Assembly: GCF_013201075.1 (NCBI RefSeq)
Contig: NZ_CP053708.1
Coordinates: 4,469,501 to 4,533,500 of the forward strand
Direction: 5' to 3'
DNA from: Lichenicola cladoniae
Lineage (GTDB): Bacteria; Pseudomonadota; Alphaproteobacteria; Acetobacterales; Acetobacteraceae
Length of the DNA: 64,000 bases
Shown: positions 1-58,732 of the stretch, piece after piece
How the letters are laid out: each line of letters begins with the position of its first letter
How positions within the stretch are numbered: the stretch's first letter is position 1
Made by a program: the position numbers and the translations under genes
Notes under the pieces: model-generated
What the model saw: only the letters and a program-made list of their open reading frames with translations
Databases searched by the model: none
What the model was told of the DNA's origin: nothing

Positions 1-2
1 AC

Positions 3-704
3 CGCGCCTGGTCGGTGAACCTGCACGGCACCCTGAACCTGGCACGGGTATTCCGGGACGAACGGCCGGATGCGCCGTTCCTGTTCGTCTCCAGTGCGGA
101 CGCGTACGGCGCCTCGTTCCAGCTTGGCCGCGCGCTCGACGAGGACCTGCCGCTCTCGCCGATGAACACCTACGGCGCCACCAAGGCCGCCGCCGACCTG
201 GCGCTGGGCGCCATGGCGGCCGAGGGTTTCCGCGCCATTCGGCTGCGTCCGTTCAATCATACCGGTCCAGGCCAGGCGCCGGATTTCGCCATTCCCGCCT
301 TCGCACGGCAGATCGCGCTGATCTGTGCCGGGCGGCAGGAACCGGTGCTGCGTACCGGCAACCTCGCCGCGTTCCGGGACTTCCTGGATGTGCGTGATGT
401 CTGCCGTGCCTACGCGCTTTGCCTGAAGCACGGCGACAGAATGGAACCCGGGATCATCCTGAACATCGCATCCGGTACAGCGCGCCGGATCGGCGATGTG
501 CTGCAAGGGTTGCTGGCGATCTCCGGTGTCGCGGTCACTGTCGAAGCCGAAGCGGCCCGTGCCCGCCAGACCGACATCCCGCTCGCCGTCGGTAACTCCA
601 GCCGCCTGCGCGACCTGCTTGGATGGACCCAGGAAATCGCCTGGGAGCAGACGTTGCGCGATGTTCTCGACGACTGGACAATCAGGGTTGCCGAACAGAG
701 CTGA
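3..704 (+). CDS. Nucleotide-sugar epimerase/reductase, C-terminal part (GDP-4-dehydro-6-deoxymannose reductase-like)
   Basis: This is an extended short-chain dehydrogenase that would reduce or epimerise a nucleotide-activated hexose in the cytoplasm for surface polysaccharide synthesis. The reading frame enters from the left edge, so the N-terminal NAD-binding glycine motif lies outside the window and about 233 codons are visible. Visible are an SSADAYG strand, the catalytic YGATK pair (Tyr and Lys roughly 55 residues in) and the substrate-loop motif RPFNHTGPGQ, which is typical of the GDP-mannose dehydratase/RMD branch. A DFLDVRDVCRAY segment follows, as in that family. The 104 bases after its stop hold the tetR promoter and no obvious terminator. 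Family assignment is firm. The exact substrate is inferred, and other GDP- or dTDP-sugar reductases are possible. Confidence 0.8.
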   Translation, partial: RAWSVNLHGTLNLARVFRDERPDAPFLFVSSADAYGASFQLGRALDEDLPLSPMNTYGATKAAADLALGAMAAEGFRAIRLRPFNHTGPGQAPDFAIPAFARQIALICAGRQEPVLRTGNLAAFRDFLDVRDVCRAYALCLKHGDRMEPGIILNIASGTARRIGDVLQGLLAISGVAVTVEAEAARARQTDIPLAVGNSSRLRDLLGWTQEIAWEQTLRDVLDDWTIRVAEQS

Positions 705-41728: not shown

Positions 41729-42955
41729 CTACTGCGCCAGGTCGTTCAGGCTCAGCATCGCCAGCAGCAGCGACGACACGATGCCTGCAATGGCGGCACC
41801 CATGATGACCGTGATGATCGGGACCAGCAGCGCCACCAGCCGCCCAACGCGCACGCGCACCTGCTCCTCATGGATTTCGGCCGCGCGCAACGCCATGGTG
41901 CCGAGCTGGGCGGTTTCCTCGCCGAGGCGAAGCAGATGAATCGCGCGAGCGGGAAAGATCCCGGCCTTGTCGAGCGTGCGGGACAGCCCGGCTCCGCCCT
42001 TGGCGCTTTCGGTCGCGTGGTCGATCGCACCCAGCACCGCGAGGTTCCCGATCACCTCTCGCACGATCCCCATCGCGGCAATCAGCGGAACACCGTTTCC
42101 CAGCAACGTTCCGAGAGTGCGGGTGAAACGCGCCGCCAGCACTTCGCGCATCAGCAGCCCGATGATCGGCAGGCGCAGCATGGCCCGGTCGGCGACCAGC
42201 CTGGTTCGTTCCTGCCGCAGCATCTGACGCGCCAGGACCGCGAGCAGCACCAGGCCCAGCAACAGGAACAGCCCGTAGCTGCTCAGGATGTTGCCGGCTG
42301 TGATCAGGAACTGCGTCGATTTCGGCAGGGCGGCGCCGTTCTGCTCGAACAGCGGCACGAACTGCGGCAGCACCTTGGTCAGCAGCAGGACGATCGAGCC
42401 GATCGCGGCCAGCGACAGCATTGCCGGATAGATCATCGCCGATTGCAGCGTGGTGACCAGCGCACGCTCGCGTTCCATCAGCGTCGCCAGCCGTTCCAGC
42501 GTCGAGGACAGGTCGCCACCCGCCTCGGCAGCACGGATCAGGCCGATATAGAGGCGCGGAAAACTGTCCGGATAGCGCATCAGCGCCGCATTGAGGGTCG
42601 AACCGTCCCGCACCGCCGCACGCAGCCCGTCCAGCACCCGGCCGACGCGCGGGTTCGGCGCGGTTTCGACCAGGAAGCGCATCGCCCGGTCCAGGTCCTG
42701 GCCGGCGCCGAGCATGACCGACAGCTCGCGGGTGAGGTTGGTGACTTCCTGCCGGCGCAACGAACTCCGGCTCAGGCGTCCAACCTCGAAGCGTAGGCCC
42801 GCCTCGAGCAGCCCGCCGCCGGACGGCTCGGCCCGCATCGGGATGTTGCCCTGCCGCCTGATCCAGGCGACTGCCTCGGCCTCGGTCGCGGCCACGGTGG
42901 TGCCCCGCACCGTCTCGCCGGTCGGGGTGATGGCAGTAAAGCGGTAACTAGCCAC
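41729..42955 (-). CDS. gspF: Type II secretion system inner-membrane platform protein F
   Basis: GspF (408 residues) is the polytopic inner-membrane platform that couples the GspE ATPase to pseudopilus assembly. It has the duplicated T2SSF domain: LTRELSVMLGAGQDLDRAM in the first half and FTRTLGTLLGNGVPLIAAMGIVREVIGN in the second. Three hydrophobic helices follow each repeat. The start is GTG. The gene is separated from gspE by 179 bp that is mostly hairpin element B, unusual spacing for an E-F pair. No DNA-uptake genes lie nearby, which makes a secretion role more likely than type IV pili. Confidence 0.94.
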   Translation of the reverse strand: MASYRFTAITPTGETVRGTTVAATEAEAVAWIRRQGNIPMRAEPSGGGLLEAGLRFEVGRLSRSSLRRQEVTNLTRELSVMLGAGQDLDRAMRFLVETAPNPRVGRVLDGLRAAVRDGSTLNAALMRYPDSFPRLYIGLIRAAEAGGDLSSTLERLATLMERERALVTTLQSAMIYPAMLSLAAIGSIVLLLTKVLPQFVPLFEQNGAALPKSTQFLITAGNILSSYGLFLLLGLVLLAVLARQMLRQERTRLVADRAMLRLPIIGLLMREVLAARFTRTLGTLLGNGVPLIAAMGIVREVIGNLAVLGAIDHATESAKGGAGLSRTLDKAGIFPARAIHLLRLGEETAQLGTMALRAAEIHEEQVRVRVGRLVALLVPIITVIMGAAIAGIVSSLLLAMLSLNDLAQ

Positions 42956-42988
42956 CCGCCTCAGCCCCCCGACGCTTCGCCGAGATCA

Positions 42989-43138
42989 GTGAGCGTTCGA
43001 GAGTGTGGTGTGCCGAGTGAGAGCGAAGCGCCCGTCGTGGCTGTCGAGAACCGGAGCGGAGCGGCCTCCTGGCCGTGAGCACCGGAAGCACAGACAGCCG
43101 CGTCGGATCGTCGGCACAGCGCGCTCTCGAATGCTCAC
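42989..43138 (+). repeat. Hairpin repeat element, copy B
   Basis: The core spans 43009-43118 (110 bp). Arms 42989-43016 and 43111-43138 are complementary at 24 of 28 positions, but their outer parts (gtgagcgttcgagag, ctctcgaatgctcac) bear no likeness to those of copy A. The internal 14-position stem is 43032-43045 with 43093-43106. The small gctccc/gggagc hairpin of copies A and C is missing here, which accounts for the 10-bp shorter core. The right arm covers the gspE stop codon (43135-43137). Confidence 0.85.
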
Positions 43139-44880
43139 CCATCCTGGTTCTCGGAGCGGATGCTCCTTGCCACTTCCTCGATCGTTGTCGTACCGGCCAG
43201 TGCCGCATCGATGCCGGCATCGAACATGGTGATCATGCCGCCGGCGATGGCGGCGCGCTCGATCGCGCTGTGGTCGGTGCGGGCGAAGATCAGCCGCTCG
43301 ATCTCGGCATCGGGGGCGAGGAACTCGGCGATCGCCTGGCGTCCGCGATAGCCGGTACCCCGGCAGTTCGGGCAGCCGACCGGGTGGAACAGGGTGAGCG
43401 GCCGGCGCTCGGTGCGTGTGTCGAGGCGGAACCGCTTGATCAGCTCGGCCGGCGCCGGCTGCTCGGTCTTGCACAGGTCGCAGAGCCGGCGGACCAGCCG
43501 CTGGCCCATCACGCCCCGCAGCACGGCGGTCAGCAGATAGTCCTCGACGCCCATGTCGCGCAGCCGGGTGATGGCGGCGGCGGCGGAATTGGTATGCAGC
43601 GTGGACAGCACCAGATGGCCGGTCAGGGCCGCCTGCACCGCGATCTGCGCCGTCTCCAGGTCGCGGATCTCGCCGACCATGATCACGTCCGGGTCCTGGC
43701 GCAGGATCGACCGCAGCAGGGTCGCGAACGACAGGCCGATCTGCGGCTTGATCTGGATCTGGTTGATGCCGCTGAGCTGGTACTCGATCGGGTCCTCGAC
43801 CGTCACCACCTTGCGGGTCACGGCGTTCAGGGTCAGCAGGCCGGTGTAGAGCGTTGTGGTCTTGCCCGAGCCGGTCGGGCCGGTGACCAGCACGATGCCG
43901 TTCGGCAGCGCCAGCATCTCGTCGAGCCGATGCACAACCTGCGGAGCCAGCCCCAGCTTCTCGTAGTCGAAGGTCACCGCATTGCGGTCGAGCACGCGCA
44001 GAACCACGGTCTCGCCGTGCAGCGACGGGATGGTCGAGACGCGGAAATCGATCTCCTGCCCGCGCACCGCGAGCTTGATCCGGCCGTCCTGCGGCAGCCG
44101 GCGCTCGGCGATATCGAGCCTGGCCATGATCTTGATGCGAGACGTGATCGCCGGGATCAGGCGTGGGCTGGGACTCTCCATCTCGTGCAGCACGCCGTCA
44201 TAGCGGTAGCGCACGCGCAAGCGATCCTCGAACGGCTCGATATGGATGTCCGATGCGCGGGTCTCGACGGCACGGAAGATGATCTGGTTGACCAGCCGGA
44301 TGACCGGCGCCTCGGACGCGAGATCCTTGAGGCGCTCGGCATCCTCCTCGAGCGGGACCGCCTCGTCATCCGGATTGGTGTGGGTTTCGCCCTCGCGCGG
44401 ATAGAGCCGGTCGAACGCCGCCTCCAGCTCGATCGGCACGGCGATCTCGGTCCGTACCGGATAGCCGGTCGCGGATGCGATGGCGGCAGGGGCGAACAGG
44501 TCGAGAGGGTCGACCACCGCCACGACCAGTTCACCGGCCTCGAGGGCGATCGGCAGGGCCCTCACGTCGCGCAGGAAGCGGGGCGTCAGCTTCTCGGGCA
44601 GCAACGGTTCCTCGGGCGGATAGCGGTCGGTGGAGACCACCGGCATCCCAAGCAGTTCGGCATAGCCGTCGGCCAGGCCGCGCTCGGACACCAGCCCGAG
44701 CTGCAGCAGGATCACGTCGAGGCGACCGCCGCTTTCGTCCGCGGCGCGGTTGGCGCGGTCTAGGCTGCGGGCATCGCAGCGGCCGGTTTCCACCAGCAGC
44801 CGGCCGAGCCGGGCAATCGGCGGTTCGTCGGTCCCGACGGGTTCGTCGCTGATGGCAGGCACGTTCGGAATGAAGTTCAT
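43135..44880 (-). CDS. gspE: Type II secretion system ATPase E
   Basis: This cytoplasmic ATPase of about 581 residues powers pseudopilus assembly. It has an N-terminal MshEN-like region (LLPEKLTPRFLRDVRALPIAL), Walker A GPTGSGKTTTLYTGLLTL, the Asp box VVTVEDPIEYQL, and Walker B QDPDVIMVGEIRDLETAQIAV. The zinc-binding four-Cys cluster is CDLCKTEQ and GCPNCRGTGYRGR. The start at 44880 (MNFIPNVPAISDEP) is selected over a longer upstream frame that would overlap the prepilin peptidase gene end. It lies 29 nt behind that gene. Confidence 0.95.
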   Translation of the reverse strand: MNFIPNVPAISDEPVGTDEPPIARLGRLLVETGRCDARSLDRANRAADESGGRLDVILLQLGLVSERGLADGYAELLGMPVVSTDRYPPEEPLLPEKLTPRFLRDVRALPIALEAGELVVAVVDPLDLFAPAAIASATGYPVRTEIAVPIELEAAFDRLYPREGETHTNPDDEAVPLEEDAERLKDLASEAPVIRLVNQIIFRAVETRASDIHIEPFEDRLRVRYRYDGVLHEMESPSPRLIPAITSRIKIMARLDIAERRLPQDGRIKLAVRGQEIDFRVSTIPSLHGETVVLRVLDRNAVTFDYEKLGLAPQVVHRLDEMLALPNGIVLVTGPTGSGKTTTLYTGLLTLNAVTRKVVTVEDPIEYQLSGINQIQIKPQIGLSFATLLRSILRQDPDVIMVGEIRDLETAQIAVQAALTGHLVLSTLHTNSAAAAITRLRDMGVEDYLLTAVLRGVMGQRLVRRLCDLCKTEQPAPAELIKRFRLDTRTERRPLTLFHPVGCPNCRGTGYRGRQAIAEFLAPDAEIERLIFARTDHSAIERAAIAGGMITMFDAGIDAALAGTTTIEEVARSIRSENQDG

Positions 44881-44909
44881 GGTCTGCCTCCGAGGCACTG
44901 CTGCATCGT

Positions 44910-45668
44910 TCAGGTGGCGCCGATCATAGACACGGCCGGAGCATACAGCCACACCGTGAACAGCGAGAAGGCGAGGCCGGGTCCGAACGGGATCGCGATT
45001 TCGGGCCGCGCTCGCCGGCCCGGCCAGGCCGCGACCAGGGTGACCAGTGCGGCCACCAGCACCAGCACCGGCAGCGCCGCGAGGCCGACCCAGGCGCCGG
45101 ATGCCGCCAGCAGCTTGGCATCCCCGGGACCGAGCCCGTCGCGGCCGCGCAGCCGGCGATAGGACCAGGCCAGGCCGGCGAAAGCGACATATCCGACCAG
45201 GGCGGCGGCGGCATGTTCAGGCAGCGCGTTCCGGTCGAGCATCCAGCAGGACAGCAGGCCAAGCATGAGCAGCGGCAGGGTCAGCACGTCCGGGAGACGA
45301 AGGCAGCGCCAATCGATCCAGGCCAGCGCGAGTGCCGTCCAGCCCAGGACGCAGCCGGACCAGAGCCAGGCGACCGAGGCGCTGTGGAGCCACCAACCCA
45401 CCACGACCAGGCCGGCAACCAGCATCGCGGCGAGCTCGATCGCCGGGTGGAAGCGCCCGATCGGCGCCCGGCAATGGCGGCACCGGCCGCCCAGGACGAG
45501 GTAGCTGAGCAGCGGGACAAGGTCGGGCGCGGCGAGGGTGGTGCCGCAACTCGAACAGGCCGAGCGGGCCATGGCGACCGGCTGGTTCAGCGGCAGGCGC
45601 ACGACCAGCACGCCCAGGAAGCTGCCGACGATCGGCGAGACCAGGAGCGGCAACAGCCAGTCCGGCAT
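44910..45668 (-). CDS. gspO: Prepilin peptidase
   Basis: This inner-membrane aspartyl protease of about 252 residues cleaves and N-methylates pseudopilins such as GspG. The zinc-binding Cys pairs CSSCG and CRHC are in the first cytoplasmic loop. The catalytic Asp residues are in AWIDWRCLRLPDVLTLPL and GLGPGDAKLLAASGAW. Eight hydrophobic segments are visible. The ATG at 45668 lies 1 nt past the gspG stop, so it is translated from the same message. A longer frame would overlap gspG and is rejected. Confidence 0.93.
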   Translation of the reverse strand: MPDWLLPLLVSPIVGSFLGVLVVRLPLNQPVAMARSACSSCGTTLAAPDLVPLLSYLVLGGRCRHCRAPIGRFHPAIELAAMLVAGLVVVGWWLHSASVAWLWSGCVLGWTALALAWIDWRCLRLPDVLTLPLLMLGLLSCWMLDRNALPEHAAAALVGYVAFAGLAWSYRRLRGRDGLGPGDAKLLAASGAWVGLAALPVLVLVAALVTLVAAWPGRRARPEIAIPFGPGLAFSLFTVWLYAPAVSMIGAT

Positions 45669-45669
45669 G

Positions 45670-46095
45670 CTACTTGTTGCAAATCTCGGCGGACGTATCG
45701 TTGGCACGGCCGCCGGGGCCGGTGGAGCACAGATCGTAATCGTGCCCGTCGCGGTTGGACGGGTTGCGATAGATGTAGGCATGATTCCAGGGGTCGAGTG
45801 GGGTCTGGTTGCTCTTCACGTAGGGGCCGTTCCAGTTCTCGGCGCTGGAAGGCTTGCTGACTAGGGCCTGCAGTCCCTCATCGGTGCCGGGGTAGTTGCC
45901 GACATCGAGCTTGTAGAGGTCCAGGATCTGCCCGATGCGCTCGATCGACTGCTTGGCGATGGACAACTTGGCGCCGCTGAGCTGCCGCAATACGGCCGGT
46001 GCCACCAGGGCGATCAGCAATCCCAGGATGGCGATTACCACCAGCAGTTCGATCAGCGTAAAGCCACTATCGCGGGCTGGGCGGCGATCGGTCAT
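45670..46095 (-). CDS. gspG: Type II secretion system major pseudopilin G
   Basis: GspG (141 residues) is the major subunit of the periplasmic pseudopilus. A short positively charged leader ends in Gly11, followed by mature FTLIELLVVIAILGLLIALVAP with the invariant Glu5 needed for assembly. The C-terminal part has the usual GspG pattern YPGTDEGLQALV, WNGPYVK, PLDPWNHAYIYRNPSNRDGHDYDLCSTGPGG, and ends with a second Cys that may pair with the first. It is the first gene of the G-O-E-F transcription unit. Confidence 0.96.
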   Translation of the reverse strand: MTDRRPARDSGFTLIELLVVIAILGLLIALVAPAVLRQLSGAKLSIAKQSIERIGQILDLYKLDVGNYPGTDEGLQALVSKPSSAENWNGPYVKSNQTPLDPWNHAYIYRNPSNRDGHDYDLCSTGPGGRANDTSAEICNK

Positions 46096-46215
46096 GGTCG
46101 AAAACCCTCGAGGTGCTGGAAGACTGGCGTTGTACCCCTGCCCGTATAATCACTGTATGAGCAGCGTCGAGGTAAGATAGAATAGGTAGATGATCATCGC
46201 GCTGTCTGCTGGCTG

Positions 46216-46707
46216 ATGCCTGTCCCATATCTGACCTGTATGGCTCTGGTGGCCTCAATATACCATTTGCCTCCGCGCGTCCTGCCGTCGGTCCAGGGGG
46301 TCGAAGGCGGGTGGGTGGGCAGCACGCACCGGAATACCAACAATACCGAGGATCTGGGTGTGATGCAGGTCAACACGACCTGGCTGTCGCCGCTGGCACA
46401 CTATACGCATACTCCCGTTGCCACGGTCTACACGCGACTGCGCGATGATGCGTGCTACAATATCGCTGCCGCCGGTGCTATCATGAGAACTTATCTCGAC
46501 GAGACCGGTGGCAATCTGATGCAGGCGGTCGGCAATTACCATTCGCATACGGCGACGCTGAATGTAGCCTATCAGGCACTGGTGATCAGATCTGCAAAGC
46601 GGCTGTTTTTGCCGAATGGAGTGAGTAGTTCCATTCAGCGCAGTCCGGCAGAGCGTATTGCGCTGCAAAAACGCCTCGTTCGCATCGCTAAACGCGAACG
46701 AGGCTGA
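46216..46707 (+). CDS. Lytic transglycosylase domain protein (VirB1/IagB-like)
   Basis: This 163-residue protein has a goose-lysozyme-type SLT fold that cuts peptidoglycan glycan strands. The catalytic Glu is residue 30 in SVQGVEGGWVG, followed by NTNNTEDLGVMQVNTTWLSPLA and YNIAAAGAIMRTYLDETGGNLMQAVGNYHS. Specialised enzymes of this type open the wall for secretion or conjugation machines. It is divergent from gspG, so a role in placing the type II apparatus is plausible (inference). No clear signal peptide is seen at the chosen start, though the first 16 residues are hydrophobic. A TATAAT box lies at 46145-46150. Its last codons form a terminator stem. Confidence 0.85.
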   Translation: MPVPYLTCMALVASIYHLPPRVLPSVQGVEGGWVGSTHRNTNNTEDLGVMQVNTTWLSPLAHYTHTPVATVYTRLRDDACYNIAAAGAIMRTYLDETGGNLMQAVGNYHSHTATLNVAYQALVIRSAKRLFLPNGVSSSIQRSPAERIALQKRLVRIAKRERG

Positions 46708-46711
46708 TTTT
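46673..46711 (+). terminator. Intrinsic terminator overlapping the transglycosylase stop codon
   Basis: The arms gcctcgttcgc (46673-46683) and gcgaacgaggc (46694-46704) form a perfect 11-bp stem with a 10-nt loop, followed by tgatttt. The stem is encoded by the last codons of the gene, and the T-run begins at the stop codon, so the terminator is built into the coding end. Confidence 0.85.
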
Positions 46712-46716
46712 ATGGA

Positions 46717-47655
46717 TTAAGCGATCGCACCGTTCAGCTTGTTCGGGAAGAACAGATAACCGGACGCCGCACCACCACCGTAGACGATGTTCAGCACCTG
46801 AGCCGTCGTGCGACGGAAAGCCAGACCGTTGCTGTCGTTGGCGACGAAATTATAGTCATTTCCCGGGATCAGCATGCGCTGCTCTGCCTCTCCACCCGGG
46901 ACGATCTGTGCGGACAGAGCGCCACGCAGGTCGGAAATCGCGTCAAATGCGACGCCTGCACCGATGTCGGCAAGCAGAGTACGGATCGAACCTGAATGGT
47001 ACGCTTCGACCGCAAGAATGCCGGCAGCAGCCTCGAGGTAATCGGGATTGGTAATGTAGCGGGCCGCACCCGCATAAGCGGTGACCCCGACATCTTCGAA
47101 TATCGACGCACCCAGCAGGAAGCTGATCTCGTCGGCGAACGGGTTGAAAGTCTGACCGGACGTGATCAGGCCGGCAGCCTGGGCAAGCACGGTAAAGCTG
47201 GTCGACAGGTTGATCGTCGGCTCTGCAACTGCACCGGTACCGAGAACAGTGCGAATGAAACGGACATGTGACAGTTCGTCGACCGCGATGCGCTGTGCAT
47301 ACTGCTGGATCGCCGCCGACTGGAACGGAACCGCCGAACCGCCGGTTACAGTTCCCTGGGTGCCGGTGCCGGTAACAAGCATGTTTCCGGCGAGCGTCTG
47401 ACCAATAGCGCGAAGATAGAATTCGGCTTCCAGGTATTCAAGGTTAAGCGCGAAGTTGAAGATATCGCCATCAATGTCGGGGGTTGTGATGGTGGCGGCG
47501 CTTGCAGACTGGCTGCCGAGCATCATTCCGCCAGTGCTGAGCGCACTCATGGCCGCAACACCGGCCAGCCCGGCACCGGCGCGCTGGAACAGACGGCGAC
47601 GGTTCAGCTCGGCAACGGTCGGAAGAAGCGCTTGGGCCTCTAGATTGTCACTCAT
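46717..47655 (-). CDS. Exported ferritin-like domain protein
   Basis: This protein of about 312 residues has a Tat-like leader (ELNRRRLFQRAGAGLAGVAAMSAL, cleaved near SASA) and a four-helix ferritin-like domain. Iron-ligand-type residues are seen in NLEYLEAEFYLRA, AVDELSHVRFIRTVLG, ASIFEDVGVTAYAGAA and ILAVEAYHSGSIRTLL. It belongs to the Ferritin_2 group that includes desiccation-related proteins. The start at 47655 gives the best leader. An earlier frame start is rejected. It would act in the periplasm or at the surface, perhaps binding metal or protecting during drying (inference). It is convergent with the transglycosylase gene. Confidence 0.88.
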   Translation of the reverse strand: MSDNLEAQALLPTVAELNRRRLFQRAGAGLAGVAAMSALSTGGMMLGSQSASAATITTPDIDGDIFNFALNLEYLEAEFYLRAIGQTLAGNMLVTGTGTQGTVTGGSAVPFQSAAIQQYAQRIAVDELSHVRFIRTVLGTGAVAEPTINLSTSFTVLAQAAGLITSGQTFNPFADEISFLLGASIFEDVGVTAYAGAARYITNPDYLEAAAGILAVEAYHSGSIRTLLADIGAGVAFDAISDLRGALSAQIVPGGEAEQRMLIPGNDYNFVANDSNGLAFRRTTAQVLNIVYGGGAASGYLFFPNKLNGAIA

Positions 47656-49001: not shown

Positions 49002-52000
49002 TCACCGGTTCAATGCGCCTGTCCGAACCAGCCCGGTCATCATGCCCTGGAGAAGGTGCGCGATATCGCCCCACTGCCGATCGGCAATCCAGGTCTGCGC
49101 GGACGCCTGTAGCTGCTCGCGCAGATCGGCATCCGAGATCAGCCGGTCCAGCCCAGTTGCGACCGACGATGCATCGATGCCGGCGAAGCGGAACACCGCA
49201 TCACCGGCCTCGGCGAACAGTTCGATCGGCGTCACGGCCACGGGCACGCCGGCGGTCATGGCGGTTCGGAGGGCCGCGCTCGACGCCTCCTTCGACGGCA
49301 GATAGGGCAGCGCCAGCACGTCGCACATCGCCAGCAATTCGAGCGACATGTCGTTCGGCATGAACCCGGTGCGAAACGTCACCACCTCGTCCAGCCCAAG
49401 GCTGCTGGCCAGGTCAAGGCAGCGGGCGATCTCCTCGCGCGAGATGTCCGCATCGTACTCGGCATTCACCAGCAGCAGCCGCGCACCCGGCCAGCGCTGG
49501 CGCAGCTCCGCCATCGCCTGGATCAGGGTGTCGATGCCTTTGCCGGGCAGGAAGAAACCGTAGCAGCCGATCAACGGCGGTCGGCGGGTTATCTCGTACT
49601 GCCACTGCTCGACCGCATGCTCGAACCGGTGAACCGGCGCCGGCGGTAGCGACACCGCCGCGCCGTGCGGCAACAGGGTGAGGTTCGACAAAATTCCCAG
49701 GCCCTGCAGCCGCCGCAGGTCCGCAACGGTATGGACCAGCACCCGGTCCAGCCTGGCCAGCGCGGCGAGCACATGCGCGAGTTCTGCCGGCACCAGCTCA
49801 TCCAACAGGCGCGTGTTGTGGAGTGTCGCCAGCAGGACCCGCCCGGCGAGGGCCGGATGGGCTATCAGCTCGGCCAGCGTCATGAACGACAGCAACCCCG
49901 GCTGGTGCTGAAGCATGACCGCATCCGCATCGTCCGCGGCGATCGCTGCAGCCAGCGGATGCAGCGATCGTGGGTCGCCCATCTGCCAGCATGGCCAGAA
50001 CCGGTCGGCTTCCGCAGGCACGGAAGGTGTACGCGTGTCGCACAGCACTCGGACCCGGAAACTGCCCTCGCCGGGCGCACCGGCGAGCCCGGCCAGGAGC
50101 TGGCGGGAATATTCGGCGACACCGCAGCGCTGGCTCCAGCTCGATACCCAACTGACACGCACCGGCATCCGGGGCGGCGCCAGCAGCAGATCGATTGCCA
50201 GCGCCGCGTAGGCCCCGGCCAGAGCTTCGGCATCCGGCAATACGGGTGGCTGGACCTCGACGGACCGTGGGGATAGCGCCTCGTGCAGGGCGACGACCAG
50301 GTCGTCCTCGTCCGGTTCGAGCCAGAGCGAGTGCGGCGTCGCCAGATGAGTTTGCGACGGCTCGGACCGGCAGCGCAGCAGGCGTACCCCCGGATGCGGC
50401 GCGTCGCCGTCCGCGCAGAACTGCGTGTGCCCGCCACGACCGGTGACGATTAGATGGAGGCCGGCCGAGAGCGCTTCCGCCGCCGGCAGGTTGAACCCCT
50501 CGCCGCGGGTCGGCAGCACCATGGTGTCGGCATCGCGATATAGCCCGACCAGCTCGGCCGGCTCGAGGTCGCGATCGACAAGTTCTATCGGCGCCAGTTC
50601 CGGATCGGCGTGCCGCAGTGCCGCCAGCATTGCGGCGACCTCGTTATGCGGATTGGGAAAGCCCTTGATCAACAGCCGGACCGGATCGCCCGCCCGGAAT
50701 GCCCGAGCCCACGCCCGCAACAGCACGTCCACGCCCTTGCGCGGAAAACACGACGACACATGCAGGAACCGATGCGTGGCGCCCACCGGCTCGACGGCGC
50801 GGATCTCGCGCAACGCTGCGAATTGGCCCAGCGCGACCGCGGGCGGAATCACCCGGACCGGAATACCCAGGCCGCTCTCGATGAGCGCATCGCGCACGAA
50901 GCCGGTCGGCGCCACGACGGCGCGGAAATTCGCGGCCAGCAGATCGATCGTCCGGGCGGGAAGCAACGACTCTTCCCAGAACAGCGTCGCCACCGACACG
51001 TCGCCCGGCCGCGGCGGGACATGCACCGGATAGTGCTGGCTGATGACCAGTTCGGGTCCGGTCGCGTGCGGCTGCCGATGCACCAGTGCGGCGATCGCGT
51101 CGGCCTGCTCCGACGGCACGCCGGACAGGTCGAGCGTCGTCGTGCCTTCGACGGGAAGCAGCCTGACCCGGCCGGGGCGAGCCGCCTCGAGATCGAGAGC
51201 GAGGTCGCGATTGATCGCGGCCAGGCTGTAGCTGCCATTGACGTGGCCGGTCACCGAGAAACGTAGGTTGGCGCCCAGCATCGACGCCGTCGTCCGGTTC
51301 AGCGGGAGCGCAGCACCGGCGCGCAGCAGCGCCTGCTGCAGCACCACGCATTGTCGGTCCAGCCCCAACCCATCGAGCCGTGCGGCCTGCCGCGCGCGCT
51401 GCGACATGCGTTCGCTTTCGTCCGAGGCCAGGTCCAGCATCGCCGTCGCGACCGTCTCGGGCGCGGTGTCGTCGAGCAGGCGTCCGGCGCCGGCGAGTGT
51501 GTAGGGCACCGCACCGCCGGGCCAGGCCAGCACCGGCACGCCGTGCGCCATCGCCTCGACCAGCGGCACGCCGAACCCTTCGTGCCGGCTCAGCGACACA
51601 TACAGGTCGGCCGCGCCGTACCAGGCATCGAGCTCGTCGTCGGTCACCCCGCCGGTGAGCAGGACACTCGACTCCAGGCCGAGCGTTGCGATCCGCTCGC
51701 GAAGCAGCCTGGCATAGAGATCGTCGACGCCGCCATCGCGGCCGACCAGCACCAGTCGGGCGGGAGCCTGGTAGCGGGTCCGGAACACCGCGAACGCCTC
51801 GACCAGGGCGAGCTGGCCCTTGGCATCGTTGATGCGGCCGACGAACAGGATGGTGAACCACGCGCCGTGCCCGGACCCGGCGTCGCGCAGAACCAGCGCC
51901 GCCGGGACGGCCGCCGCGGCGCGGGCACGGAGGGCGTCGACATCGAAAAGCAGCGTGCAGACCCGCACCGGCGCGATGTCGAGGCGGTGCAGCTCGATCG

Positions 52001-53822
52001 CGTTGAAGTCGCTGTCGGCCAGGCTGACCGACACCTGGTTCTTGAAGGCGCCGAGTTGGCTCCGGCCGAGCCGGGCGTAGTGGGCGAGGTGCGGGTGCCG
52101 GACCAGCAGCTCCGGCGGAGTTATGTTGTGATAGAACAGGATCTTCGGCGCCGGCAGGTCGAGCACCTGAGCAAACCGGTCGTAACCCATCGAGTGCCTG
52201 ACGATCAAAACGTAGCCGTCATGGCGGGGCAGTTCCTCGAATGGCCGCAGCTCGTGCGCCAGCGCCTTGGGCGGATGCTCGGTATAGATCTCGCTGCGAT
52301 AGCCCATCGAGCGAAGCAGGCTGCGGGTCAGCAGCATCGCATTGGTGATCGCATCGCCGACCGCAGAGCCCGAATGGAACTGGTGCACCGCCAGCAGCCC
52401 GCCCGACATCGCCTGCCCGGGCTCGAGCCGCGTCGAGCCGGGCGGCGGCAGAATCGGCAGCGCGGGCTGTGCCGGGGGCTGCGACGCCGGATCGTCCAGC
52501 TCCGGCTCCGGAAGCGGGTCGGGCGTCTCGGCCTGCACCTCTTCCGGGGCTGCGACCGGTGGCGGCCGGTCCGCTGGGGGCTGCTCCGGCACGTCCTGAA
52601 CCGGGTACGGTTCGAGCAGCGCCGGCGCCACGACGGGCACCTGCGGGTCCGGGTCGCCGGTCCGGCGGGTGATCGACACCAGGCGACGCAGCGGTTCGGT
52701 CAGGCGCCAGGACGTGCTGTGACGCAGCGCATGCAGGGTGTCCCGGAGGGTCGCGGCATCCAGCTCCACCGCCTGGATCTGCAGATGCGCCTGCTGTAGC
52801 CGCATATGCGTCTGTTGCAGCTGCAGCTGCGCCTGTTCCCGCTGCAACAGGGCCTTCTGCAGCCGCAGATGGGTCTGCTGCAGCTCGTGACGGCTTGCAT
52901 GCAGGGTGTGGCCCATATCCGTGATGATGCGATCGGCGTCAGCCTTCGCTGTCAGCACCTCGGCATCGCGGTCCGCGACCGCCTGGCGAAGCTGGGCGAT
53001 CTCATGCCCGGTTCGTGCAACCAAGCGCTGCGTCAGCAAGGCCTGCTCATGCAGGGCGGCATCGGCAGCCTGCAGGCGTACCTGCAGTGCCTCGCGTTCA
53101 GCCTCGGCGGTTCCGAGCCGGCCGATCAGGCTGCTGTCGTTGGCGCGCAGGAAATCGTCGAACACGTTCGGCGGCGTGCGGAAGCATGGTCCCAGCGCAT
53201 CGAGCCGTTCGCGCGCGACGTAGTAGCGGTTGAGCCCGTCGAACCAAACGAACACGTAGTCGACCGCGGTGAGCAACGGCTCCCACACCGCATGCGTCTC
53301 GCGCGTTGAGAGCGGCGCCGTCGCCTCCGCCAGAATGATCCACGGCCGGAACGAGACCAGGTCGGCACCTTCGAGCACCGCCCGCTCCGCACCCTCGACG
53401 TCGACCTTGAGAAAATGGATGTCGGGCGGGGCATACAGCCTGCAGATCTCGGCCAGCGTGAGGACCGGGATCGTCGTCTCGCGAACCTTATGCGCGGTGC
53501 CCGCATACGTCGCCGCGACCGCGCCATCCAGAGTCGAGAGGCCGGTTCCGTCGACGACGTGGAACGGCGCTTCCCCGGCCTGCGCACCGAGGGCGATCTG
53601 CAGCGTGATGTCGCGCGGCCGTGCCGCCTGTAGCCGGGACGCCTGTTCCACCACCGGCTCGATGTTCACCCCACTCCAGCCGCGATCGTAGAAGGCGCGG
53701 GTGACGCTGTCGGTGTCCGGATGCTGCGCACCCACGTCGATGTAGAAACCACCCGCGACATGGCCGAGGGCACGCCACAACAGCACGTCCTCACAATTCT
53801 GCGCGTAGGAAATGAACGTCAT
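49002..53822 (-). CDS. Giant fusion: FkbM methyltransferase, coiled coil and three glycosyltransferase domains
   Basis: This 1606-residue protein probably builds and methylates a surface glycan on the cytoplasmic face of the membrane. Residues 1-225 are an FkbM methyltransferase (FYIDVGAQHPDTDSVTRAFY, FLKVDVEGAERAVLEGADL). Residues 240-375 form a coiled coil rich in LQQTHLRLQ-like repeats. Residues 380-460 are proline-rich. Three GT-B glycosyltransferase domains follow at about 474-827 (SRHEGFGVPLVEAMAHGVPVL), 854-1207 (FLHVSSCFPRKGVDVLL, TRGEGFNLPAAEALSAG) and 1221-1600 (GFFLPGKGIDTLIQAM, ASSAALRTAMTAGVPVAV). The frame is open throughout with no break. The next glycosyltransferase gene lies 85 nt upstream. 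A coiled coil between methyltransferase and transferases resembles chain-length-controlling glycan enzymes (inference). Confidence 0.9.
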   Translation of the reverse strand: MTFISYAQNCEDVLLWRALGHVAGGFYIDVGAQHPDTDSVTRAFYDRGWSGVNIEPVVEQASRLQAARPRDITLQIALGAQAGEAPFHVVDGTGLSTLDGAVAATYAGTAHKVRETTIPVLTLAEICRLYAPPDIHFLKVDVEGAERAVLEGADLVSFRPWIILAEATAPLSTRETHAVWEPLLTAVDYVFVWFDGLNRYYVARERLDALGPCFRTPPNVFDDFLRANDSSLIGRLGTAEAEREALQVRLQAADAALHEQALLTQRLVARTGHEIAQLRQAVADRDAEVLTAKADADRIITDMGHTLHASRHELQQTHLRLQKALLQREQAQLQLQQTHMRLQQAHLQIQAVELDAATLRDTLHALRHSTSWRLTEPLRRLVSITRRTGDPDPQVPVVAPALLEPYPVQDVPEQPPADRPPPVAAPEEVQAETPDPLPEPELDDPASQPPAQPALPILPPPGSTRLEPGQAMSGGLLAVHQFHSGSAVGDAITNAMLLTRSLLRSMGYRSEIYTEHPPKALAHELRPFEELPRHDGYVLIVRHSMGYDRFAQVLDLPAPKILFYHNITPPELLVRHPHLAHYARLGRSQLGAFKNQVSVSLADSDFNAIELHRLDIAPVRVCTLLFDVDALRARAAAAVPAALVLRDAGSGHGAWFTILFVGRINDAKGQLALVEAFAVFRTRYQAPARLVLVGRDGGVDDLYARLLRERIATLGLESSVLLTGGVTDDELDAWYGAADLYVSLSRHEGFGVPLVEAMAHGVPVLAWPGGAVPYTLAGAGRLLDDTAPETVATAMLDLASDESERMSQRARQAARLDGLGLDRQCVVLQQALLRAGAALPLNRTTASMLGANLRFSVTGHVNGSYSLAAINRDLALDLEAARPGRVRLLPVEGTTTLDLSGVPSEQADAIAALVHRQPHATGPELVISQHYPVHVPPRPGDVSVATLFWEESLLPARTIDLLAANFRAVVAPTGFVRDALIESGLGIPVRVIPPAVALGQFAALREIRAVEPVGATHRFLHVSSCFPRKGVDVLLRAWARAFRAGDPVRLLIKGFPNPHNEVAAMLAALRHADPELAPIELVDRDLEPAELVGLYRDADTMVLPTRGEGFNLPAAEALSAGLHLIVTGRGGHTQFCADGDAPHPGVRLLRCRSEPSQTHLATPHSLWLEPDEDDLVVALHEALSPRSVEVQPPVLPDAEALAGAYAALAIDLLLAPPRMPVRVSWVSSWSQRCGVAEYSRQLLAGLAGAPGEGSFRVRVLCDTRTPSVPAEADRFWPCWQMGDPRSLHPLAAAIAADDADAVMLQHQPGLLSFMTLAELIAHPALAGRVLLATLHNTRLLDELVPAELAHVLAALARLDRVLVHTVADLRRLQGLGILSNLTLLPHGAAVSLPPAPVHRFEHAVEQWQYEITRRPPLIGCYGFFLPGKGIDTLIQAMAELRQRWPGARLLLVNAEYDADISREEIARCLDLASSLGLDEVVTFRTGFMPNDMSLELLAMCDVLALPYLPSKEASSAALRTAMTAGVPVAVTPIELFAEAGDAVFRFAGIDASSVATGLDRLISDADLREQLQASAQTWIADRQWGDIAHLLQGMMTGLVRTGALNR

Positions 53823-53907: not shown

Positions 53908-55425
53908 CTACGCCGTGGCAACGCCTTCGGCGAAGGCGTCGGCCACGGGCAGGCGGTTCCGGCCGTGGTCGATCGCCCTCAGGATGGCGCGTGCGGATTC
54001 GTCCCAGCTGACCGGCCGGAACTCCGATGCAACCCGCTTGCTCCAGGCCTCGGTACCGTCCGGGTCCTCGATCGCTTGCCGGATGACGCGGCAGGCTTCG
54101 GTGCCGTTCTCGGGGTCGAAGTAGCGTGCCAGCGGGCCGCCGGCTTCGGGCAGGGCGCTCGCATTGGAGATGATGCAGGGACGTCCGAAGCTGAAGCTCT
54201 CGGTGACCGGCAGGCCCCAGCCCTCGTAGAAAGACGGGAACACGGTGAACAGGCAACCGTCATAAAGCCGCTCCAGCTCGCCATCCTCCGGATTCTCCAC
54301 TAGCAGGATCTTGCCGTCGAGATACCGTGCATTCGTCAGCTGCTGCATGAGGTCGGCGACCAGCCAGCCGACCCTGCCGGCGAACACCAGCGTCGGCACC
54401 CGGTCTGCCGGCATCTCGTCGAGCAGCCGGCGCCAGACCCTGAATAGCAGCGCATGGTTCTTGCGCGCCTCGATCGTCGACACCATCAGCACGTAGCTGC
54501 GCGCCGGCGGCAACCGGTCGGTGCGCACGACCGGCACGGCGTGGTCGGAATGACCGACCGGCCGACTGAAGCCGGTGCCGATCGGAATCACCGACGGTGT
54601 TGCGCGCAGCGGCAGTTTCCGCCGGTCCGCGACCGCGAGAATGTCATGGGCACTCGCCTGGCTGATGGTCAGCAGCGTGTCCGCCAGCGACAGCATCCCA
54701 CAGGCCCAGATCTCGAACCGGTCGACGAGGTTGCGATCGCACCATTCGGGCCGCAGCAGCGGGATGATGTCGTAGATGAGCAGGGCGATCCGCATCTGCC
54801 ATTTGTCGCGCACCCGCGTGATCATCTGGTTGTAGAACGGGTGGAACCAGGGCGAGCCCAGGATGAGCAGCACGTCGCCGGGCCCGGCACTGGCGTCGAA
54901 CGTGGCAACGGTGAGCCCGTCGGCAGCCGGCACCGTGGCCCGGCCGCGCGCGACGGTGGTGCGTAACTTGGAGACACGGCCGGCCGCGGCACCGGTCAGC
55001 TTGCCGGCAGCCCGCACGCTCTCGCGCTGGGCCTTGAACAATCCGACCATGGGCGTGCGCAGATCGAGCGGAATGCGGTAGGCGACCCGCCGGGCCAGGC
55101 TGCCGAGCACTTTCGACCCGGTGGCGACGACTGCCGACCCGGGCGTCGCCGGGGCAGCATCCGAACCATGCGCCGACGGCGGCATGCTGGCGTCCGCGGA
55201 CGCAGTCATCCGGGCATGGAGCGCGTCGATCTCGGCGAACGGGATGGTCTGGAAGCTGTCCTGCGCCGAGGCATGACGGATGAAGCCGACCCGGTCGCGG
55301 GTTTCCGGCATCAGAGCCAGCGAACGGCACAGCTCGAACTGGATCCGCTGAATACCGCTCGGCCGGGCATTGAAGGCCGAGTACTGGAACAGATCCTCGA
55401 CGTCGACCCAGATCCTGTTGGGCAA
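53908..55425 (-). CDS. Glycosyltransferase family 4 protein
   Basis: This 505-residue GT-B glycosyltransferase adds a sugar from a nucleotide donor to a growing glycan. It begins RIWVDVEDLFQYSAFNARPSGIQRIQFELCRSL, an N-terminal pattern common in mannosyl- and rhamnosyltransferases of surface polysaccharides. The C-terminal donor domain has YVLMVSTIEARKNHALLFRVWRRLL and VFPSFYEGWGLPVTESFSFGRPCIISNASALPE with the conserved Glu residues. A stretch of about 60 residues (about 85-145) is Ala/Arg-rich and poorly conserved. It is the first gene of the minus-strand glycan unit and divergent from the FkbM gene. Confidence 0.92.
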   Translation of the reverse strand: MPNRIWVDVEDLFQYSAFNARPSGIQRIQFELCRSLALMPETRDRVGFIRHASAQDSFQTIPFAEIDALHARMTASADASMPPSAHGSDAAPATPGSAVVATGSKVLGSLARRVAYRIPLDLRTPMVGLFKAQRESVRAAGKLTGAAAGRVSKLRTTVARGRATVPAADGLTVATFDASAGPGDVLLILGSPWFHPFYNQMITRVRDKWQMRIALLIYDIIPLLRPEWCDRNLVDRFEIWACGMLSLADTLLTISQASAHDILAVADRRKLPLRATPSVIPIGTGFSRPVGHSDHAVPVVRTDRLPPARSYVLMVSTIEARKNHALLFRVWRRLLDEMPADRVPTLVFAGRVGWLVADLMQQLTNARYLDGKILLVENPEDGELERLYDGCLFTVFPSFYEGWGLPVTESFSFGRPCIISNASALPEAGGPLARYFDPENGTEACRVIRQAIEDPDGTEAWSKRVASEFRPVSWDESARAILRAIDHGRNRLPVADAFAEGVATA

Positions 55426-55600: not shown

Positions 55601-56734
55601 GTGCGCCAATCGGAGCAGCCCGTCAACGTGGCCCTGTTGCAGACAGAGACCGGCAAGCGACTGGCAGAGCCCTCGCCCCCGGCACCAATGCATGAACCCT
55701 GGACCGGCGGGTTTTCGCCTCGTGCGACCGAAGCGGACATCTACCATTGTTTCCGGCTGCTGTTGGGACGTCTGCCAAATCGCGAGGAGTGGCCCGGGCA
55801 CACGGCGCGTATCGGCGAGCCGCTCGATCAGGTGGTGGCGAGCTATGCCGGCTCCCTGGAATTCTCCCGGCGCGGACTGCATCGATCGGTGGCACTGGGC
55901 GAGGTGCAGCTGGCCGAGTTGGCGCGGTTCCGCATCTACACCCAGGACGACGATGCCTCGGTCGGCCACCATGTCCGCGAGGATAATTACGAGACCGACG
56001 TGAGCGCGGTGTTTCGGCACGTGCTGCGGCCCGGTTCCAACGTGCTCGATCTCGGTGCGAACATCGGCTACTTCACGATGTTGTCAGCAGAACTGGTCGG
56101 GCCGACCGGATCGGTCATCGCGGTGGAGCCGAACCCGACCAATGCACGCCTGATCGAGGCGAGCCGGCGTGCCAACGGCTTCAGCCAGGTGACCATCATC
56201 CAGGTCGCGGCTGGTCCGGCCCCGGGTCTGCTGGTGTTGCACCGGGCGCACTCGAACGGCACCACGTCGGTGCCGCCCGACGATGTCGCGGCGCTGCTCG
56301 ACTCCGAAACCGTCGGCTGCGTACGGGCCGATACGCTGGTGCCGGAAGGCAGGCGCATCGATCTCATCAAGGTCGATGTCGAGGGTGCCGAATATTTCGC
56401 GCTGAGCGGCTGCACCGGCATCATCGAGCGCGACCGTCCGGCGATCGTAACCGAGTTCAGCCCGTCGCTGATGCCGGGAATTTCCGGGATCAGTGGTCGT
56501 GCCTATCTCGACTGGCTGATCGGGCATGGCTACCGGCTACGGATCGTGATGCCGGACGGCAGCCTGCGCACCGCCGAGCCGAATGCGATCATGGCCGAAC
56601 ATGCAGCCCGCGGCACCGATCATCTGGACCTGCTGGCCGAACCCCTGCCCATGCCGCCGAAGCCGGCAGCCCCAAGACGGGTCGGCCTCCTCACCCGGAT
56701 GCTGCAGCAGCGCAACCCCGGTGCCCCGACATGA
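55601..56734 (+). CDS. FkbM family methyltransferase
   Basis: This 377-residue SAM-dependent methyltransferase probably O-methylates a sugar or glycan end. The SAM-binding motif NVLDLGANIGYFTMLSAELVGPTGSVIAVEPNPTNARLIE starts near residue 145, and RIDLIKVDVEGAEYFALSG is the FkbM signature. The first 100 residues (DIYHCFRLLLGRLPNREEWPGH, SLEFSRRGLH) resemble the small repeat domain often fused to glycan enzymes. The start is GTG at 55601, and another GTG at 55628 is possible. Its stop overlaps the next gene by 4 nt. Confidence 0.9.
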   Translation: MRQSEQPVNVALLQTETGKRLAEPSPPAPMHEPWTGGFSPRATEADIYHCFRLLLGRLPNREEWPGHTARIGEPLDQVVASYAGSLEFSRRGLHRSVALGEVQLAELARFRIYTQDDDASVGHHVREDNYETDVSAVFRHVLRPGSNVLDLGANIGYFTMLSAELVGPTGSVIAVEPNPTNARLIEASRRANGFSQVTIIQVAAGPAPGLLVLHRAHSNGTTSVPPDDVAALLDSETVGCVRADTLVPEGRRIDLIKVDVEGAEYFALSGCTGIIERDRPAIVTEFSPSLMPGISGISGRAYLDWLIGHGYRLRIVMPDGSLRTAEPNAIMAEHAARGTDHLDLLAEPLPMPPKPAAPRRVGLLTRMLQQRNPGAPT

Positions 56735-57075
56735 ACCGCCGCCACCCGACGACCCTGCCCAGGATTCTGCTCGCCGCCGCGACCGTGGCAACCCTGTCCG
56801 GCTGCGCCACCCGCGGCTGCGACAACCCGTATGTCCTAGACTATATCGACAACGCCGACAGGAGCAGCGACCTCGCCTATCTCGGCCTGGTACGCGACGC
56901 CGTGCGAACCGACCCTGGCCCAAAGCCGAACACCGCCTATTGCTCGGTCTGGCAGCGCATCAAGAACCCCGCCTACGGCAGCACCCCGACCCAGCCCGAG
57001 TCCCTGCTACGCCCCCAACATTACACGATCACCCAGTTCGACCACGGCTGGCGCATCGTCCCCACGATCCCCTGA
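56731..57075 (+). CDS. Small putative lipoprotein of unknown function
   Basis: This 114-residue protein has a signal peptide and lipobox TLSGC with the acylated Cys at residue 25. The mature part contains three more Cys residues (ATRGCDNPYV, AYCSVWQRIKNPAYG) and ends HYTITQFDHGWRIVP. I do not recognise the family. It is translationally coupled to the FkbM gene (TGA/ATG overlap), which suggests a link to envelope glycan assembly. It ends 62 nt before hairpin element C. Confidence 0.75.
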   Translation: MNRRHPTTLPRILLAAATVATLSGCATRGCDNPYVLDYIDNADRSSDLAYLGLVRDAVRTDPGPKPNTAYCSVWQRIKNPAYGSTPTQPESLLRPQHYTITQFDHGWRIVPTIP

Positions 57076-57136
57076 CACAGCCAGGGGATCGAGCGAGGAC
57101 TACCTCCCCGGCACCCTTCCGGCACCGAGTTCGCCC

Positions 57137-57271
57137 AATGCGCTGTGCCGAGTGAGAGCTCCCCTTGGGGGAGCGCCCGTCGTGGCTATCGAGAACCGGA
57201 GCGGAGCGGCCTCCCGGCCGTGAGCACCGGAAGCGCAGAGAGCCGCGTCGGATCGCCGGCACAGTAGCATT
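57137..57271 (+). repeat. Hairpin repeat element, copy C
   Basis: The core spans 57144-57263 (120 bp) with tgtgccg and cggcaca ends. Outer arms are short here: 57137-57150 pairs with 57257-57271 over about 13 positions around one small internal loop. The internal stem 57177-57190 with 57238-57251 has one mismatch in addition to those seen in the other copies. The side hairpin gctcccc/ggggagc (57158-57174) has a longer stem than in copy A. The right end overlaps the last base of the stop codon of the convergent flavin reductase gene. Confidence 0.83.
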
Positions 57272-57756
57272 CAAACGTGGGAAAGGCCGTGGTAGGCGCG
57301 GGCGAAGTAGACCAGCGCCGCTGCCGGGTCGCCGAGACGGATGTCCTGCACGTGGCAGAAGATGACGCTGTGCGTGCCGACCTCGACAACGCTTGAGACC
57401 AGGCAATCGAACGAGACCAGCGACTGCTCGAGCACCGGGGCGCCGGTGACCAGCGTGGTCCAGACGCCTTCGGTAAAGCGTTCCTCCATGTCCAGCTTGC
57501 CGGCAAACGCGACCGATATGTCGCGCTGGGCGTGGGCGAGGGTGTTCACGCAGATCGGACCACCCTCGATGAAGGCGGCCCGCGAGCGAGAACTGCGATT
57601 GATGCAGACGAGCAGGGTCGGCGGGTCGTCGGTCACGGAGCAGACCGCCGACGCGGTCAGCCCATGACGGCTGACTCCATCGCCTGTGGTGATGACGTTG
57701 ACCGCTGCGCCAAGCCGCGACATTGCCTCGCGATAGATCGTTGTATCGACGCCCAT
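57271..57756 (-). CDS. Flavin reductase-like FMN-binding protein
   Basis: This protein of about 161 residues has the split-barrel flavin reductase fold that supplies reduced FMN to a partner monooxygenase. Visible are FREAMSRLGA-like start residues (YREAMSRLGAAVNVITT), HGLTASAVCSVTDDPPTLLVCINRSS, FCVNTL-like ICVNTLAHAQRDISVAFAG, and HSVIFCHVQDIRLGDPAAALVYFARAYHGL. The start at 57756 follows GGGAGAG. A start 12 codons earlier is unlikely. No monooxygenase gene is adjacent. HpaC- or RutF-like function is therefore only a family-level call. Confidence 0.85.
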   Translation of the reverse strand: MGVDTTIYREAMSRLGAAVNVITTGDGVSRHGLTASAVCSVTDDPPTLLVCINRSSRSRAAFIEGGPICVNTLAHAQRDISVAFAGKLDMEERFTEGVWTTLVTGAPVLEQSLVSFDCLVSSVVEVGTHSVIFCHVQDIRLGDPAAALVYFARAYHGLSHV

Positions 57757-58723: not shown

Positions 58724-58732
58724 AGCGCCTCC

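Follow-up and report, generated by a model that had tools for sequence, protein, structure and literature searches.

We analyzed a 64,000-nucleotide stretch of the Lichenicola cladoniae genome (contig NZ_CP053708.1, positions 4,469,501 to 4,533,500; hereafter the window) in which a single gene encodes one long protein comprising an FkbM methyltransferase, a long helix, and three glycosyltransferase (GT) modules. The frame, on the minus strand at 49002-53822, opens with an ATG and continues uninterrupted for 1606 residues with zero internal stops (Table 1). An earlier note on this DNA had proposed such a fusion, and its coordinates, strand, length, and order of domains proved exact. Frame length was rejected as evidence for a gene: shadow frames of 1200-1500 codons overlie homologous loci in GC-rich DNA, and because such frames occur in relatives, length alone proves nothing for a frame of 1606 residues. 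The window frame is instead taken as a genuine single gene because the full domain order, with intact methyltransferase motifs, is conserved in 12 chains from 11 genomes (window included), five of them from named isolates. A frame error that artificially merged separate genes, which the earlier note had named as its own refutation, or a misassembly with the same effect might draw on two relatives (L026 and L087; L and G numbers are our labels) in which the GT modules occupy one frame and the methyltransferase and helix another, overlapping one. Set against the single frame of the 12 conserved chains, this explanation is extremely improbable and was ruled out for the window.

Table 1. Features of the window discussed in the text, with their positions and the evidence for each
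Feature	Position	Strand	Basis
Whole chain: FkbM - helix - basic helix - linker - GT1 - GT2 - GT3, 1606 residues	49002..53822	-	frame reading, Pfam, NCBIfam, AlphaFold
FkbM-family methyltransferase domain, residues 1-215	53178..53822	-	Pfam, NCBIfam, AlphaFold, fold comparison
Continuous helix of 138 residues (230-367) with heptads, straight length ~20 nm	52722..53135	-	AlphaFold, heptad score
Short basic segment at residues 369-387 bearing the S-x-S-W-R-x-T-x-P-x-R motif, possibly a membrane-binding helix	52662..52718	-	AlphaFold (low confidence), hydrophobic moment
Proline-rich disordered linker, residues 388-475	52398..52661	-	AlphaFold
GT1, GT4-type module, residues 476-855, EX7E and R..K intact	51258..52397	-	Pfam, AlphaFold, alignment, fold comparison
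GT2, GT4-type module, residues 856-1215, invariant columns concentrated, EX7E and RKG intact	50178..51257	-	Pfam, AlphaFold, alignment
GT3, GT-B module, residues 1216-1606, first Glu and GKG lysine kept, second EX7E Glu replaced	49005..50177	-	AlphaFold, alignment, fold comparison
Separate GT4 glycosyltransferase, 85 bases upstream of the chain	53908..55425	-	Pfam
Second FkbM methyltransferase, divergently oriented	55601..56734	+	Pfam, NCBIfam
Membrane acyltransferase (Acyl_transf_3), inferred start 38 bases past the chain stop codon	47791..48963	-	Pfam
Ferritin-like (Ferritin_2) protein, twin-arginine-type leader seen by eye	46717..47655	-	family model
Type II secretion genes, two assigned by family models (GspG, GspE) and two by eye (GspF, prepilin peptidase)	41729..46095	-	family models / eye
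3' part of rmd (GDP-6-deoxy-D-mannose reductase)	1..704	+	nearest solved proteins, family search

Methyltransferase, helix, and linker

Two AlphaFold runs, one for the N-terminal part and one for the GT part, each modeling a single chain from an alignment restricted to sequences of the window and the loci, returned a confident methyltransferase, a long helix, a mostly disordered linker, and a confident GT part, in agreement with the arrangement proposed earlier. The methyltransferase matched Pfam Methyltransf_21 (PF05050) at residues 29-190 with 89.2 bits (cut-off, 22.7) and NCBIfam TIGR01444 (FkbM) with 61.7 bits (cut-off, 37.7). Fold comparison placed it among class I methyltransferases, the FkbM crystal structure 2py6 being tied best (Z 13.2, root-mean-square deviation [rmsd] 2.4, 155 residues). 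A profile of the methyltransferase-helix part had zero matches to PDB sequences at E 0.01, though it also missed 2py6. Residues D29/G31, E55-P56, and K139-D141-E143-G144-E146, the S-adenosylmethionine-site-type motifs of the family, are intact in the window protein and invariant in 14 aligned sequences, the degenerate L033 having been left out of the alignment.

The helix at residues 230-367 was modeled with block values of the predicted local distance difference test (pLDDT) of 83-92 over residues 241-350, falling to 69 where the helix begins and to 73 and 58 where it ends. Its heptad score, computed with a simple home-made version of the measure, was reached by 4/2000 shuffles, which upholds for the window protein the coiled coil claimed in the earlier note; the claim does not extend evidently to all homologs, given that among nine tested the score was reached by ≤15/1000 shuffles in four, by 32 in one, and by 111-554 in four. 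The helix region, measured as the distance between the DDF and tryptophan motifs, ranges from 83 to 182 residues in the 12 sequences with both motifs (147 in the window).

Beyond the helix, a second helix at residues 372-387 was predicted at low confidence (pLDDT about 46-54). The 18-residue windows starting at 370-372 have a net charge of +4 and a hydrophobic moment of 0.40-0.41 on a simple home-made hydrophobicity scale, and from these predictions we infer that the basic segment at 369-387 may bind the membrane. Its S-x-S-W-R-x-T-x-P-x-R motif follows the helix in most homologs and recurs at the end of other FkbM-type proteins (L015; L087: 5443-6726, minus strand), and an S-x-S-W-K version stands ahead of the GTs in an Afipia protein (L036); the motif is a candidate for a general membrane or docking element. 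The proline-rich linker described earlier was also borne out, with pLDDT mostly <50 over residues 388-475.

Glycosyltransferase modules

Pfam recognized three stretches each of Glyco_trans_1_4 (PF13692) and Glycos_transf_1 (PF00534) above cut-off, the best at 657-801, while the NCBIfam GT matches of the chain lay below cut-off. The C-terminal 1137 residues were modeled with a mean pLDDT of 89.1 and a predicted template modeling score of 0.83. GT1 and GT3 matched retaining GT-B enzymes, with Z 26.6-31.9 among the matches listed; PimB' with GDP-mannose matched GT3 (Z 31.8, rmsd 3.0 over 344 residues), and several further GTs matched it equally well. GT2 was barely covered by the fold comparison, and its assignment is based on Pfam and the AlphaFold model. 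WbdD and WbbB were not among the fold matches listed, which is uninformative.

The EX7E motif is complete in GT1 and GT2 and altered in GT3, where the second Glu is replaced in 18/18 aligned sequences covering the site and the first Glu and the nucleotide-site lysine are kept. Because the first Glu is retained although the second is replaced, GT3 is non-canonical rather than clearly dead. Inactive GT domains had been named beforehand as a finding that would overturn the original proposal; GT1 and GT2, however, have full catalytic motifs.

Homologs and natural variants

The chain set was assembled from a scan of a genome collection (16 related loci, not all whole chains), a profile search of 120 genomes of the window's family, and an earlier search for relatives, with duplicates removed. 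The profile search located the GT core in 15/120 family genomes. In total, 23 genomes yielded 27 chains that possess a GT2-GT3 core. Of these genomes, 18 belong to the window's family by computed kinship, and the other five (L027, L029, L030, L032, and L034) were assigned to it by record name. Since chains were counted by their GT2 match, the constancy of this core is partly due to selection. The methyltransferase is fused and intact in 12 chains (window, L025, L027, L029, L030, L031 [the cultured Lichenicoccus roseus], L032, L034, L038, L086, L089, and L088), the L038 chain being cut within GT3 by a contig end. It is fused but degenerate in 2/27 (L055, the same gene as L010, without an FkbM match; L033, a 57-residue remnant), encoded in a separate overlapping frame in 2/27 (L026 and L087, splits that may be real or sequencing errors), and absent in 5/27 (L054, L056, L084, L091, and L092, which bears repeats resembling tetratricopeptide repeats [TPR]). 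In the remaining 6/27, the N terminus is cut by a contig end or not assignable (L028, L035, L057, L083, L085, and L090).

GT1 also varies, being absent in L036 and L092 and degenerate in L037 and L054, where GT2 and GT3 retain their motifs; in L032 and L034, Asp replaces the first EX7E Glu of GT1. Across eight fused intact homologs, identity to the window protein is 56-75% for the methyltransferase, 27-42% for the helix region, 49-72% for GT1, 52-71% for GT2, and 39-60% for GT3; conservation of the methyltransferase is similar to that of the GTs, which argues that it is constrained where kept while the helix drifts. This natural series, with helices longer or shorter, methyltransferases degenerate, separate, or missing, and GT1 missing or degenerate, could serve to test the roles of the helix and the methyltransferase.

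More distant arrangements were also observed. The Afipia protein (L036), from another family, consists of GT2 and GT3 preceded by a short stretch at the N terminus. At L092, a 2061-codon frame at about 3859-8067 (minus strand) joins TPR-like repeats (seen by eye), a GT like the 53908 neighbor of the window chain, and GT2-GT3, a further reshuffling of these components. Sulfurovum (L040) has weak relatives of GT2/GT3 (26-27% identity) next to Wzt-like and manC-like genes, both named by eye.

Donor sugar

The L. cladoniae genome itself holds a source of GDP-D-rhamnose: type II secretion genes resembling gspD and gspK (named by eye), located a little upstream of the window, are followed by gmd and rmd, about 48 kb from the chain, and the window starts inside rmd. 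The best solved relatives of the rmd product are the GDP-6-deoxy-D-mannose reductases 6x3b and 2pk3. Both genes adjoin the chain in L038/L093, L056, and L091, and in Afipia (L036) a gmd lies next to the gene for the GT2-GT3 protein. Among the 120 family genomes, rmd occurs in 14/15 carriers of the chain and in 34/105 non-carriers (Fisher p 8e-6, a test that treats genomes as independent, which shared ancestry contradicts, so that this and the other co-occurrence p-values overstate the case). Because of the adjacency of gmd and rmd, the co-occurrence of rmd, and the likeness to 6x3b and 2pk3, GDP-D-rhamnose is our best guess for the donor; GDP-6-deoxy-talose or GDP-mannose is possible.

Export genes

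Inspection by eye of the genes called in the window revealed no Wzm/Wzt exporter. Elsewhere in the genome, a Wzm/Wzt-like pair at 2.22 Mb (2.3 Mb from the chain) is closest to galactan exporter models, below their cut-offs, and its ATPase consists of the ATP-binding cassette (ABC) domain only; a second Wzm-like gene, also below the model cut-off, lies at 0.44 Mb. KpsM- and KpsT-like genes (the KpsM match below cut-off) stand with a Capsule_synth gene at 1.94-1.95 Mb, near apparent paralogs of the chain's two neighbors, and an ABC pair at 2.84 Mb looks by eye like a drug exporter. None of these genes is linked to the chain. A Wzm homolog was found in 15/15 carriers (Fisher p 0.04), but since 98/120 family genomes have one, the co-occurrence indicates capacity rather than linkage and is uninformative. 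The C-terminal carbohydrate-binding domain of Wzt (PF14524) occurred in 0/16 carrier genomes, completeness being known for 7, which leaves a WbdD-type cap read by this domain unsupported. The 1.94-1.95 Mb region (L050; C1:1936000-1954000) contains, besides the KpsM/KpsT-like and Capsule_synth genes, an FkbM gene, a GT resembling that at 53908, and an apparently truncated gmd. At L052 there is a Wzy_C match, where gene calling with the window codon usage gave no gene.

Comparison with known systems

The earlier note had likened the chain to WbdA/WbdD-type O-antigen systems, an apt description of the layout (a capping-type enzyme, a coiled coil, and transferases), and had set it apart by the union of these parts in one chain; such a union is not new, given the precedents of Klebsiella O7 ORF6, O12 WbbB (PMC11231755), and Geobacillus WsaE (PMC2943079). 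A single chain, ORF6 of Klebsiella pneumoniae O7, joins an N-terminal methyltransferase-kinase to a coiled coil and a pair of GT modules, and its tBLASTn orthologs are said to include alphaproteobacteria, some with C-terminal GT modules (PMC11231755). It shares with the window chain the N-terminal methyltransferase, the coiled coil, and the C-terminal GT modules, but it has a kinase and a predicted carbohydrate-binding module between methyltransferase and coil, two TDP-rhamnose-dependent GTs, and a wzm/wzt cluster, whereas the window chain is of the FkbM type, with three GTs, no recognized kinase, and no exporter recognized in the window. The nearest functional precedent is WsaE of Geobacillus stearothermophilus, a trifunctional protein in which an N-terminal methyltransferase likewise precedes two rhamnosyltransferase modules and which methylates independently of chain length in vitro (PMC2943079). 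Compared by description, WsaE differs from the window chain in having two GTs that use L-rhamnose from dTDP-rhamnose, and its excerpted description mentions no long coil.

In Klebsiella O12 WbbB, which is one chain with a 3-deoxy-D-manno-octulosonic acid (Kdo) transferase as terminator, and in Escherichia coli O9a WbdD/WbdA, a coiled-coil ruler bears the terminator at its distal tip and the GTs or their recruitment site at the opposite one (PMC11231755, PMC3482155). The FkbM domain, the helix at 230-367, the low-confidence helix at 372-387, and GT1-3 follow one another in an order that fits this layout. The terminators of these systems differ from FkbM, being a Kdo transferase or a methyltransferase-kinase; in O9a, moreover, WbdD and WbdA are separate proteins and the exporter bears a cap-reading carbohydrate-binding module (PMC11231755, PMC3482155). 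This domain of Wzt is a feature of O9a and is absent in O1/O2a. In the A-band polysaccharide of Pseudomonas aeruginosa, WbpX, WbpY, and WbpZ make a D-rhamnose trisaccharide repeat, with GDP-rhamnose as the D-rhamnose precursor (PMC9415975); by description, these three D-rhamnosyltransferases parallel the three GT modules but are named as separate transferases. One-chain methyltransferase-coil-GT proteins are thus already known from O7 ORF6 and its orthologs, whereas a methyltransferase of the FkbM type, three GT modules per chain, the variant series, and the surrounding type II secretion and ferritin-like genes appear to be new. No FkbM-helix-triple-GT protein was found by title or abstract among the matches listed, which covered open-licence papers only. 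The small set of one-chain methyltransferase-helix-transferases is hereby extended by proteins of the FkbM type with three GT modules from many genera of one bacterial family.

Proposed function and alternative explanations

On the basis of the observed frame, domains, folds, GT1 and GT2 catalytic motifs, conservation, neighbors, and rmd co-occurrence, we favor, with modest confidence, a reading in which the chain works in the cytoplasm, probably bound to the membrane, and assembles a surface polysaccharide containing D-rhamnose, which FkbM O-methylates; the donor sugar, the membrane contact, the methylation target, and the polymeric nature of the product are what the reading supposes beyond these observations. 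Gmd and Rmd would supply GDP-D-rhamnose, and the GT modules, together with the neighboring GT4 enzyme, would lengthen a lipid-linked acceptor sugar by sugar on the membrane face that the basic segment would occupy. The FkbM domain, ~20 nm away on the long helix, would O-methylate chains that come within its range, most likely on hydroxyls close to the growing end, and the neighboring acyltransferase and second FkbM protein would decorate the product further. The conservation of the methyltransferase, the fusion of a second-FkbM homolog to the GT chain in L087, and the position of the weak Sulfurovum relatives beside Wzt-like and manC-like genes also favor this proposal. Several findings weigh against this proposal. 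The genes called in the 64-kb window, inspected by eye, included no recognizable polysaccharide exporter or initiating enzyme. The genes gmd and rmd adjoin 3/27 chains only, just one of these three with a methyltransferase, and G090, a carrier with two chains whose methyltransferases are both intact, shows no rmd; the Fisher p for rmd, as noted, takes no account of shared ancestry. With GT1 degenerate in L037 and L054 and the second Glu of GT3 lost throughout, the three GTs may not all be active.

Two narrower explanations are special cases of the favored reading and overlap with it. The FkbM domain may O-methylate the non-reducing end and stop growth, the helix setting a minimum length as in WbdD or Klebsiella O7 ORF6. 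The order of enzyme at the far end of the helix, putative membrane helix, and GT modules matches that of characterized terminators (PMC11231755), and a 2-O-methyl cap has been assigned to the N-terminal methyltransferase of WsaE (PMC2943079). Against such a ruler stand the 0/16 carrier genomes with the carbohydrate-binding domain of Wzt, the spread of the helix region over 83-182 residues in 12 sequences, the degenerate (2/27), separately framed (2/27), or absent (5/27) methyltransferase, and the lack of evident heptads in 4/9 homologs. Variable helix length alone does not refute a ruler because rulers may differ between strains, yet the capping ruler of the earlier note, for which the layout fits, appears doubtful on balance, and termination by FkbM should not be taken as established in view of the variable helix, the tolerated loss of the methyltransferase, and the lack of a cap-reading exporter. 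A tentative but somewhat better candidate is methylation along the chain, the helix acting as a tether and length being set elsewhere, for example by the exporter/synthase ratio as in Klebsiella O2a, whose transporter lacks a carbohydrate-binding module and whose chain length follows stoichiometry (PMC11231755). Tolerated loss of the methyltransferase in several chains agrees with this explanation, as do the galactan-type Wzm/Wzt-like pair of the genome (below cut-offs), with its ATPase of the ABC domain only, and the Wzm homolog in 15/15 carriers; still, Wzm is nearly ubiquitous (98/120), the pair lies 2.3 Mb from the gene without a specific link, and the order of the modules would be a coincidence.

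In a rival to the favored reading, each GT would act once, yielding a short lipid- or protein-linked glycan and no polymer. Differences between the module motifs, with EX7E full in two and altered in the third, are compatible with such a fixed oligosaccharide, and no polymerase or exporter gene was recognized nearby by eye. Klebsiella O3, O5, O7, and O12, however, achieve polymerization with a chain that bears two or three GT modules, supplemented in O7 by an additional stand-alone GT (PMC11231755), and we regard the oligosaccharide as unlikely.

Neighboring genes and a possible link to type II secretion

Homologs of the GT4 enzyme at 53908 lie beside the chain in L025, L084, and L054 and within the same frame in L092. 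The second FkbM protein very likely acts on the same product as the chain, judging by the gene at L087 (7129-11766, minus strand), in which GT1-GT2-GT3 are fused C-terminally to a homolog of this second FkbM, a Rosetta-stone fusion.

On the other side of the chain, tblastn of the window genes against the loci showed that ferritin-like genes adjoin 13/27 chains and type II secretion system (T2SS) genes 10/27, both lower bounds because several loci are short. The T2SS genes stand near the chain in the window (41729-47655), L025, L027, L028, L029, L035, L055, L057, L083, and L087. Nine loci share the order of chain, ferritin-like gene(s), lytic-transglycosylase-like gene, and gspG, and L087 is without the intervening genes; the lytic-transglycosylase-like gene was named by eye, its sole NCBIfam match (TrbN) being below cut-off. 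T2SSG was found in 14/15 carriers and 36/105 non-carriers among the 120 family genomes (Fisher p 1.4e-5, subject to the same dependence among genomes), and within rmd-positive genomes in 13/14 carriers and 11/34 others. Physical linkage across genera is a stronger argument for the tie than these p-values. The chain could belong to a type II secretion module in which its surface glycan, methylated, acylated, and containing D-rhamnose, serves as a docking site for, or is attached to, ferritin-like proteins exported by the twin-arginine translocation (Tat) pathway and leaving via the adjacent T2SS, a reading that we consider improbable. The tie was unexpected and, if functional, would link surface glycan synthesis to protein secretion. 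No literature connecting the T2SS with ferritin-like Tat proteins in this family was found by title or abstract among the matches listed from open-licence papers. Separately, FRCSRPGGRSAPVLDSHDGR occurs in non-genic minus-strand frames at 42986-43474 and 57029-59008, which suggests a short dispersed DNA repeat.

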